From Methanobacteriota archaeon (GTDB lineage Archaea; Halobacteriota; Methanosarcinia; Methanosarcinales; Methanosarcinaceae): a stretch of DNA of 55,986 bases. The stretch spans positions 13,302-69,287 of the forward strand of contig JAENZL010000009.1 in assembly GCA_016841265.1 (NCBI GenBank), read 5' to 3'. Below the pieces are notes generated by a model. That model did no database searches. It saw nothing but the letters and a program-made list of their open reading frames with translations, and was not told where the DNA came from. Position numbers and translations under genes: made by a program. Below, piece by piece: positions 5,999 through 12,200 of the stretch (its first letter is position 1; the number at the start of each line of letters is the position of its first letter).

Positions 5999-6205
5999 GT
6001 GAAAACAAGGATAAAGGAATTCAGGGCCCGGTATAACCTGACTCAGGAAACCCTTGCAAAGATGGTCGGGGTAAGAAGGGAAACTATCGTTTTTCTTGAA
6101 AAAGGAAAGTACAACCCCTCTCTAAAGCTTGCTTACAAGCTTGCAAAGGTTCTGGAAGCGACAATTGAAGAGTTGTTTATCTTCGAGGACTCGGATCTGG
6201 AATAA
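5999..6205 (+). CDS. Xre-family HTH transcriptional regulator
   Basis: This 68-residue protein is almost entirely one Cro/C1-type helix-turn-helix: [20 protein letters not shown] at residues 11-30, followed by the conserved EKGKYNPSL and a dimer-type tail. It matches the compact archaeal and bacterial regulators of the YozG/HTH_3 type. The start is GTG 5999, preceded by GGAGGT. It is the second gene of a two-gene unit with the DUF2178 membrane protein. Binding to the repeated TTTACAACAT sites upstream of the operon is likely but inferred. It has no sensory domain of its own, so any signal would have to come through a partner, perhaps the membrane protein. Confidence 0.92.
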
Positions 6206-6654
6206 GCCGGAGGGTTCATTCTACTTAAATTTTATTATATATTATATTTTTCTTCATTTTCAATTTTATTATTCTCTGGAAATCTAATTATACCCATAAT
6301 TTTTTTGAGGGCGGCTTTAAGTTGAAGGTTAACCTGATTTTTGTTAAGGAAGTAAAATTCATAATCCATAAATACTTGAATCCAAATTGGATAATTGTTG
6401 AGTGGTTAACTTTTTTGGAGATTTATATATAACCCCCCAAGAATAGTTATACCTGGCCCCATGGTATAATGAAAAATTTTTGTCCCAAACTACTCCCATA
6501 TACTCTCCCTGAAAACCTGCTCAATATCTCATTTTAAAAAACAGATATGGGTGCCGCACGGCTCTGCGGTACCCTCCACTTTCCTTTTACTGCCGCGGTT
6601 TTTTCTTTGAATGTTTTCCTTTAAATTTCTTTAAATTTAACTTATTTAATTTAT
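6206..6654. other. Intergenic region with possible small transcript and hairpin
   Basis: No gene is convincing here. A TATA-like box (TTTATATATAACC) lies at 6421-6433 on the plus strand. About 120 bp downstream, at 6549-6574, a hairpin has arms GGGTGCCGCA and TGCGGTACCC and is followed by a pyrimidine-rich run. This could be a short non-coding transcript. The hairpin could also serve the leftward cbiP gene, which ends at 6655. Neither reading is proven. Confidence 0.35.
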
Positions 6655-9961: not shown

Positions 9962-11137
9962 ATGCGCTACGAACTGTTTATCGCCCTCCGGCAGATCCGG
10001 GCCAGGAAGTTCCAGACCCTTCTTTCCGTAGGAGCGATAGCCCTGGCTGTGATGGTACTCACCATTTCCCAGGCGTTCATGGTAGGGTTTACCGATGAAC
10101 TTTATGACACCACGGTGGACAAACTCCCCCATGTCTCGGTCTCCCCGACGGAAGATGAGGAATACATCTACCTTTACAGGACTCTGATGGAGGAAATAAA
10201 TTCAATCGAAGGTGTCACAGCGGTTTCACCTTTTCTGACAGGCAAGGCTTCTTTAAATTTCAAGGACAATTCCCGGAACGTCGAACTGAGGGGGGTGATC
10301 CCTTCCCGGGAGAACGAAATCAGTGAAATCGAAAGCGACATGGTGGAAGGCGACTTCCAGGAACTCGAGTTTTCGCGGAACACCCTGGTCCTTGGCTCGA
10401 AACTCGCGGATAAGCTCGAAGTCAAACTGGGGGATTTCGTGGACGTTTCCTTTCCTGATGCAAACCCTCTTTCCCTCAGGGTTGTCGGGATCTTCCACAC
10501 CGGGTCTCCTCTGGACGAGTCTCTTGCTTACTGCTCTCTCGAGACTGCCCGGAACTTTTACGACGTATCGGACGTGGTAAGCGGGATTTCCGTCCAGATC
10601 GAAGATTTCAATAAAGACCGGGAACTCGCTGCCGAAATCGAACAGACTGGCTATGAAGCCAAAGGCTGGACCGAGACAAACCCTGAAATTCTGCGCACCC
10701 TTGCTATCGAAGGGACCTCAAACAGCATCACTCTCGGCCTTATTGTGATCATAGCTTCCTTCGGCGTTGTCAGCACCCTGAACCTTTCCGTAATAGGTGC
10801 AACCCGCCAGATAGGCATGCTCCGCGCCATGGGCGCCTCTGTCTCAAGCATAAAAATGATTTTCCTTCTCCAGAGCGGCATCCTGGGTTTTCTGGGGGCT
10901 TTCTTCGGAACCCTTATCGGCATCGTTATCTCTCTCTGGATCGGAGAATACGAATACCCCGAAGGCGTAGAGTTTGCTGAACAGTTCGGGGGTATCAGCT
11001 CCATCCCGGTAGTCATTCGCCCCGAGGATGTCATCCTTATCATTGTCGCGGTCTTCCTGCTGAACCTTATTGCGGGCATCTACCCGGCACAGCAAGCTGC
11101 AAAATTGGACCCTGTAAAGGCTATAAGTTCAAGGTGA
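9962..11137 (+). CDS. ABC transporter permease, FtsX/MacB/LolC type
   Basis: The 391-residue protein has the fixed topology of this family. A first membrane helix lies at about residues 18-40 (LSVGAIALAVMVLTISQAFM). An extracytoplasmic MacB-like domain spans about 45-250. Three C-terminal helices span about 260-380, with the typical RQIGMLRAMGAS coupling motif that contacts the ATPase. It ends with the conserved AAKLDPVKAI. Members form mechanotransmission or lipoprotein/peptide export complexes with an ATPase. No ATP-binding protein is encoded nearby, so it must use one from elsewhere. The start is ATG 9962. The preceding surface protein could be its extracellular partner. Confidence 0.9.
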   Translation: MRYELFIALRQIRARKFQTLLSVGAIALAVMVLTISQAFMVGFTDELYDTTVDKLPHVSVSPTEDEEYIYLYRTLMEEINSIEGVTAVSPFLTGKASLNFKDNSRNVELRGVIPSRENEISEIESDMVEGDFQELEFSRNTLVLGSKLADKLEVKLGDFVDVSFPDANPLSLRVVGIFHTGSPLDESLAYCSLETARNFYDVSDVVSGISVQIEDFNKDRELAAEIEQTGYEAKGWTETNPEILRTLAIEGTSNSITLGLIVIIASFGVVSTLNLSVIGATRQIGMLRAMGASVSSIKMIFLLQSGILGFLGAFFGTLIGIVISLWIGEYEYPEGVEFAEQFGGISSIPVVIRPEDVILIIVAVFLLNLIAGIYPAQQAAKLDPVKAISSR

Positions 11138-11190
11138 GCTTCTGCCAGAAAGGTGATCTTCTGTCGGAAAGGTGATCTTCTGTCGGAATA
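11129..11190. repeat. 19-bp tandem repeat starting at the permease stop codon
   Basis: Three copies of an AAGGTGATCTTCTGTCGG-type unit begin with the terminal AGG codon and TGA stop of the permease gene. The stop codon is thus present in every unit. This parallels the arrays at 3236, 26552 and 28670. Confidence 0.8.
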
Positions 11191-11369
11191 TCGAGTTTTG
11201 ACCCCCAACTCCGATTTCTTTTTACATTTCCTTTAAATATTTAACTACCTTAAAAAATTCAACCACTATTAATATATTTACGGCATTGTAATGTTCCAAG
11301 TGAATAAATAAGTCAACCGGGTTGTAAATTTATCCCCGATAATTATATATATTTTTCTCACCCTTGTTC

Positions 11370-11458
11370 ACATACTTCCTATAGCATAGCGAACAAAAAG
11401 GACCTTGTGTGGGAATTCTCATCAACTGACCACTGATGAGAATTTCTCATATTTCTAT
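11370..11458 (+). ncRNA. Candidate small RNA A, first of a related pair
   Basis: A TATA box (TATATATAT, 11344-11352) is followed at 11384 by GCATAGCGAAC and then a hairpin. The arms are GAATTCTCATCA (11413-11424) and TGATGAGAATTT (11434-11445), fully paired if one G-U pair is allowed, and a T-rich tail follows. The same order, spacing and partial sequence recur 343 bp downstream (candidate B). No reading frame with a ribosome site is present. The 5' end is estimated as 25 bp after the TATA box. Expression is inferred, not seen. Confidence 0.5.
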
Positions 11459-11559
11459 TCTAATAAGTTAACATAAGGATATTTGTTCCTTATTATTTTC
11501 CTTATTTTGTTTTTTACAGTTTTTACCTTGGTTTAAGTGTCGAGGTCTGGATGTCGCAA

Positions 11560-11605
11560 TCCAACTGTTACAATCCAACTGTTACAATCCAACTGTTACA
11601 ATCCA
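11560..11605. repeat. 14-bp tandem repeat between the sRNA candidates
   Basis: Three to four copies of CAATCCAACTGTTA lie between the two small-RNA candidates. Confidence 0.85.
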
Positions 11606-11711
11606 ATCGTTCAGGCTGATTTAATTTGAGCGGGCCAACCTAGCTTTAAAAAAAATTCTATACATTTCAAAAGAATTTCGGAAACTATATATATTATCCT
11701 ATGATAAATTA

Positions 11712-11798
11712 CCATGCTACTTTGTTGCATAGCGCGAACTTTGAGTGGGGGATTCCCTGCAGCTGATCACTGATTGGGAATTCTCATTTTTTCTTTCT
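11712..11798 (+). ncRNA. Candidate small RNA B, second of a related pair
   Basis: TATATATAT at 11686-11694 is followed 41 bp later by GCATAGCGCGAAC (11727), the same core as in candidate A. A hairpin with arms GGATTCCC (11750-11757) and GGGAATTC (11776-11783) follows, then CTCATTTTTTCTTTCT, a good archaeal U-tract terminator. The stem sequence differs from copy A but the structure and the loop motif CTGATCACTGAT are kept. This suggests selection on an RNA rather than chance similarity. A 73-codon gene begins about 180 bp downstream. Confidence 0.52.
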
Positions 11799-11978
11799 AT
11801 TTGTATTTTGTTTTCAGAAGTATTTTTGCCGGTTTTTTGTTTTCCTGTTTTCTTCTTAAGGCTCGGCTTTGGGTACTGTTTGAAAGAAGTAAAGGGAACT
11901 TATTATTTTTGTTGACATATCTTATTTATTTATATTTAATCCAAATATTTATATTCATTTACAGATATTTATGCTGTT

Positions 11979-12200
11979 ATGGGCAACAGTAAAGAATACA
12001 AATTTTATCTTGCAGCCCTGGACAATAACAATTCTCTCCTGGGCAGGAGAAGAGCTATAAAAATGCTCAGCAAATGCGGGACCGAGGAAGCCCTGTATTA
12101 CATGAACGAGCTCGTAGTGGATAGGTACTGCCTGCTACCCGACTGGACCAAAAGGATAGCAAGGGAATATTATGTCTGTCTCTGCCTTGAGTTCCTCTGA
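11979..12200 (+). CDS. Small hypothetical protein
   Basis: This is a 73-residue soluble protein, helical throughout, with a HEAT-like look in LLGRRRAIKMLSKCGTEEAL followed by YYMNELVVDRY. It has three cysteines and ends in CLCLEFL. I do not recognise a family. The start is ATG 11979. AT-rich TATA-like sequence (TATTTATATTC) lies about 35 bp upstream, so the message may have a very short leader. Codon choice is like that of neighbouring real genes (GAGCTCGTA, CCCGACTGG), which supports coding. The gene stands alone, just after the two small-RNA candidates. Confidence 0.6.
   Translation: MGNSKEYKFYLAALDNNNSLLGRRRAIKMLSKCGTEEALYYMNELVVDRYCLLPDWTKRIAREYYVCLCLEFL

Follow-up and report, generated by a model that had tools for sequence, protein, structure and literature searches.

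We observe, in the 55,986-nt window (the whole stretch of DNA analysed here) from a methanogenic archaeon, two adjacent units on the + strand that we read, with a probability of about 0.8, as conserved paralogous genes for trans-acting sRNAs, each with its own TATA promoter. Judged by their sequences, the units are very probably real regulatory RNAs. Both are located inside a gene-free gap of 841 bp by ORF borders (11138–11978), close to the 840 bp originally predicted, between an FtsX/MacB-type permease ORF (9962–11137), which forms the 5′ border, and a 73-aa ORF (Table 1). In unit 1, TATATATAT begins at 11344 and GCATAGCG is found 40 bp on, at 11384–11391, followed by GAAC, the hairpin and a T-rich tail. 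In unit 2, TATATATA begins at 11686, GCATAGCG is found at 11727–11734 (41 bp), GAAC occupies 11736–11739, and the hairpin is followed by TTTTTTCTTTC. This series of elements, from the TATA box to the T-rich end, had been predicted for both units and is present in each at the expected positions, as is the 343-bp distance between the units, which is read directly from the two GCATAGCG copies. Between these copies the register shifts by 2 nt, owing to a CG inserted in unit 2 (AGCGAAC versus AGCGCGAAC). The predicted transcript of unit 1 would start at about 11369–11375 and end in the T-rich tract at about 11450–11460. Besides the repeats in the inter-unit spacer, a 19-bp tandem repeat at 11131–11187 reaches into the 3′ terminus of the permease ORF, and a different 17-bp repeat is found upstream of unit 1 in another genome (G082, locus L054).

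Table 1. Features of the two predicted sRNA units and their surroundings (positions in the window)
Feature	Position	Strand	Basis or remark
Unit 1 upstream region, possible regulator sites (TTAAACATTTCAACG in Methanosarcina)	11235–11342	+	75% invariant over 11235–11329, 4 species
Unit 1 TATA box TTATATATAT	11343–11352	+	Sequence; ATATA core invariant in nearly all homologues
Predicted sRNA unit 1	11369–11460	+	Covariance-model match 11369–11463; 89% invariant; homologues in 31 genomes
Unit 1 conserved 5′ segment GCATAGCGAACAAAAA	11384–11399	+	Alignment; AGCGAACAAA 1–3 times in homologues
Unit 1 hairpin, 13-bp stem, apical segment CAA-CUGACCA-CUG	11412–11446	+	Fold z −3.5; pairing in homologues
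14-bp tandem repeats TGTTACAATCCAAC in inter-unit spacer	11552–11607		Outside the RNAs; spacer 32% invariant
Unit 2 promoter AAGAATTTCGGAAACTATATATA	11671–11693	+	Kept from the window's genus to Methanosarcina; 78% invariant over 11661–11711
Predicted sRNA unit 2 (predicted ends)	11712–11798	+	89% invariant over 11712–11790; match to unit-1 model; 10 genomes
Unit 2 hairpin: 9-bp outer stem, inner CAG/CUG stem, heptaloop CUGAUCA	11749–11784	+	Fold; 97% of cells paired
73-aa ORF, neighbour, outside the RNAs	11979–12200	+	Own TATA AAATATTTATATT at ~11944–11956, ~30 bp before the start

At the level of sequence, the two units are shown to be homologous, as paralogous genes would be. Their local alignment scores 39, compared to 16.7 ± 2.6 (maximum 29) in 2000 dinucleotide shuffles. 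A covariance model built from 30 unit-1 homologues, with no unit 2 among them (R2), matches unit 1 of the window at E 4e-20 and unit 2 at E 3.4e-7, with the next + strand match at E 0.35, and it recovers unit 2 from the whole genome at E 2e-5 (E-values from both models are approximate, as the tool itself states). A second model built from unit 2 (R3) in turn recovers copies of unit 1.

The genome that holds the window (G000; 3.65 Mb, 67 contigs) belongs to a genus represented by four genomes (g1), one of which is a single contig of 4,211,468 bp; the named neighbours are DUKH01000201 (Methanosarcinaceae archaeon UBA9310) and the MAG contig JAENYU010000018. We take g1 to be the nearest sister genus of g13, which we read as Methanosarcina. 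When invariance is defined as the share of columns identical in all four g1 species, each RNA segment reaches 89%, promoter 1 85%, promoter 2 78%, the 95 bp upstream of promoter 1 75%, and the 38 bp before the 73-aa ORF 71%, with 32% in the spacer and 39% and 45% in the outer flanks (45% in the 3′ flank). Pairwise identity to the window is 92–100% in the RNA segments versus 73–87% at third codon positions in the adjacent permease gene; the RNA segments thus evolve more slowly than these mostly silent sites. The region upstream of unit 1 can be aligned to other Methanosarcina, including the extra copies elsewhere in the genome, and its long conserved stretch suggests that transcription of unit 1 is regulated.

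Beyond the window, R2 matches unit 1, which is accompanied by its promoter, in 31 of 112 Methanosarcinaceae genomes, all of them in g1 (4/4) or g13 (27), and has no match in the 46 genomes sampled elsewhere in the order, outside this family. The tandem pair is recovered, with unit 2 at E < 1e-13, in 10 genomes (G000–G003, G080, G081, G082, G094, G096 and G097), and a degenerate unit 2 can still be recognised in G074 (E 0.002). Since the tandem occurs in both genera, it most simply predates the split between g1 and g13, with later loss or erosion in several Methanosarcina. The original prediction had made its case depend on homologues in related species, and these exist with promoter, hairpin and loop kept; it had further expected a covariance-model search to return covarying homologues, and here the homologues were found, with covariation that is modest.

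About nine genomes carry an extra unit-1-like copy elsewhere, mostly in a shorter form with the same promoter. Such shorter second copies are found at L059, L060, L062, L064, L066, L067 and L068 in several Methanosarcina, and most second-copy loci of this type also encode, about 0.7 kb away, a small protein that is probably exported (MKNN.KF..ISVFT.LM.LTLLSTAASASVYTYKTPLGAGTPPATQRLTGGG). At L061 in G104 (6180–6282), a unit-1 copy with a degraded TATA region and hairpin adjoins the 73-aa ORF; it has possibly been replaced by an intact short copy elsewhere in that genome. Extra copies in about nine genomes are what might be expected if the inverted repeats were DNA elements, either binding sites for a regulator or remnants of a mobile element, and the model does match the opposite strand too because the hairpin is near-palindromic. 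We nevertheless regard this explanation as highly improbable: the copies are few (1–3), retain a 5′ segment that is specific to one strand, show synteny between the two genera, and have a TATA promoter at 34–40 bp in all cases but the degraded L061. Across 34 copies, the distance from TATATA to GCATAGCG is 34–40 bp, and in the dispersed copies the promoter travels with the RNA while other genes lie alongside.

The 73-aa ORF at the 3′ border of the gap is present in 35 genomes of the same two genera as the RNA and follows the RNA on the same strand in 28 of the 31 RNA-bearing genomes. This association would be explained if the hairpins were 5′ leader elements of the gene, such as attenuators or riboswitch-like structures, rather than separate sRNAs. 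The start of the ORF, however, is preceded at about 30 bp by a conserved TATA box of its own, and the separation between the ORF and unit 1 ranges between 220 and 690 bp across the syntenic genomes that were read, with G081 at 2.2 kb. The interval that separates the permease gene from the 73-aa gene spans 1,506,300–1,507,365 of contig 1 in G082 and 4,006,576–4,007,700 of contig 1 in G074. The ORF is also found without the RNA nearby in G089, G090, G091 and G098, the extra unit-1 copies adjoin other genes, and a leader would not require a pair of units in succession, each with its TATA box. From its own TATA box, the variable distance and the presence of the ORF without the RNA in at least four genomes, we conclude that the RNA is a neighbour rather than a leader of the 73-aa gene, and we consider the leader explanation improbable. 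The protein itself has 26 of 73 residues invariant among 12 homologues and is predicted to be HEAT-like with four helices (model pLDDT 92). It has no match in Pfam or NCBIfam, and the best PDB matches of the model, designed alpha-Rep proteins, are not significant (E 0.4).

The consensus of unit 1 reads AGCAUAGCGAACA-(AAAGCGAACA)0-2-AAAACCUUGUGCAGGAAUUCUCAUCAACUGAUCAYUGnAUGAGAAUUCU-U-rich, with the 10-nt module AGCGAACAAA occurring 1–3 times depending on the species (L043, L049, L035, L037 and others). Compared to shuffled sequences, the fold of unit 1 is better (z −3.5) and that of unit 2 alone is unremarkable (z −0.8). The 3′ hairpin of unit 1 is solid, with 98% of cells paired in 30 homologues, and the unit 2 hairpin has 97% of cells paired in nine sequences. 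For the whole structure of unit 1, 98% of cells are paired versus 24–53% when the partners are slid. A first helix, GCAUAG/UUGUGC, may also form: 97% of its cells are paired, but it is nearly invariant and includes G-U pairs. The original prediction that the stems have diverged with pairing kept is true, with a divergence that is modest. At stem position 7, unit 1 has U-A or U-G where unit 2 has C-G. Unit 1 closes its loop with an A-U, A.C or G-C pair and unit 2 with G-C, and most other stem positions are identical. Pair changes within each unit type show no excess over shuffles, and the case for a conserved RNA fold is therefore carried mainly by the comparison between types and by the finding that more cells are paired than in slid registers. 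The loop motif is retained as predicted, the heptaloop CUGAUCA being the best-kept feature common to both units.

A conserved transcript could also be a small mRNA encoding a peptide, and there is precedent in the many M. mazei sRNAs that were found to be translated (PMC11456600). One such frame, of 23 aa and starting at an ATG, runs through the 5′ segment in G082. In the window, this type of frame is broken, and the sole + strand ORF of at least 20 aa over unit 1 begins at a TTG inside the unit. Between species, there are non-triplet indels, namely the 10-nt AGCGAACAAA repeats and an A-run in the 5′ segment, which together with the broken frames exclude a shared peptide and leave a small mRNA with very little probability. 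A search of Rfam at gathering and relaxed thresholds gave no family match, with chance snoRNA matches only. With no conserved frame, no Rfam family and a separate TATA box for the 73-aa gene, neither a leader nor a small mRNA is a likely identity for the units.

Duplicated small-RNA genes with their own promoters, as originally proposed, are still the best reading of the locus, with transcription as the predicted part. Both units have the properties by which itsRNAs are recognised: an intergenic location with a promoter of their own (by sequence and conservation), and conserved sequence and structure without a conserved ORF. Each would yield an intergenic sRNA of about 75–95 nt from its own TATA promoter, whose conserved 5′ segment would be single-stranded or weakly paired (GCAUAGCGAACAAAA in unit 1) and whose stable 3′ hairpin, capped by a conserved apical loop of the CUGAUCA type, would be followed by a U-rich end. 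The original prediction spoke of regulatory RNAs with intrinsic termination. The regulatory-RNA part is supported, but termination by a hairpin plus T-run is a bacterial notion. Termination in archaea depends mainly on the U-tract, and the hairpin is thus more likely a functional or stabilising element.

By analogy to sRNA154 and sRNA162 of M. mazei, the 5′ segment and/or the loop would act in trans by base pairing with mRNAs, with the AGCGAACAAA segment and the heptaloop as candidate pairing surfaces. We infer transcription, the RNA ends and trans base pairing, the last because exact-complement searches in up to five genomes gave no conserved target site. Exact complements of AGCGAACAAAA and CCTTGTGCAGG in these searches (at most five genomes) were mostly scattered or coding sites, with no orthologous 5′ region common to both genera, and no consistent signal emerged from the energies of duplexes among the RNAs or between them and the start region of the 73-aa gene. 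The loop complement CAGTGATCAG was rejected as a target signal, as its many intergenic matches in G074 and G082 are one dispersed repeat, and its backwards control is unfair because that control contains CTAG. This CAGTGATCAG-bearing repeat of G074 and G082 (L169, L173, L179, L181, L185 and others) is probably coincidental.

Of 38 distinct hairpins, 32 have six loop bases that are completely self-complementary; these include a coordinated change to UGGCCG in Methanosarcina sp. KYL-1. The palindromic UGAUCA of the heptaloop could conceivably be a kissing site for dimers of one RNA or of the paralogues, with the number of AGCGAACAAA modules (1–3) setting the valency. We hold this as a possibility, and a rather unlikely one, because all four g1 copies of unit 1 break the self-complementarity rule (UGACCA).

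The family is absent from Rfam and is of a known archaeal sRNA kind, and the finding is real. In M. mazei, sRNA162 (191 nt) is encoded between an ArsR-family gene and MM2442 and acts on mRNAs through a single-stranded segment, and its relative sRNA171 arose by duplication of the whole locus (PMC3510493). Like these, the units described here are intergenic and promoter-bearing with a paralogue from duplication, but they are adjacent genes rather than copies of a whole locus, are shorter (about 75–95 nt by conservation versus 191 nt), and are flanked by the permease and 73-aa ORFs rather than by an ArsR-family gene and MM2442. The neighbours, which include no ArsR-family gene, and the length speak against identity with sRNA162 or sRNA171. 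A second candidate, sRNA154, is located between MM3337 and MM3338, and its promoter contains the NrpR operator GGTA-N6-TACC (PMC3177094); the monomethylamine methyltransferase MM3334-3335 is close by (PMC3510493). It shares its kind with the units as a Methanosarcina-specific, conserved intergenic sRNA of about 130 nt whose stem-loops pair with mRNAs. The units lie in a synteny block with cobyric acid synthase (cbiP), the permease, the 73-aa ORF, an EamA transporter and AMP phosphorylase, and GGTA-N6-TACC is absent from the window and from the surroundings of the units at the homologous loci that were retrieved. Synteny and the missing NrpR operator speak against identity with sRNA154.

A text search of the literature for the conserved motif returned nothing relevant, with an unrelated primer as the sole match. 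One or both RNAs may already be numbered in the M. mazei sRNA list of Jaeger et al. 2009, in which case the name would change and the finding would stand. Among bacterial sRNAs, OmrA and OmrB are tandem duplicates, encoded by adjacent homologous genes with separate promoters, in which the ends are conserved and the middle has diverged. The two units resemble them as adjacent homologous sRNA genes with separate promoters, which are here archaeal. Few archaeal sRNAs have been characterised, and the well-studied ones of Methanosarcina come mostly from one species; the units described here would represent a compact and strongly conserved family, older than the split between two genera, with tandem as well as dispersed paralogues.
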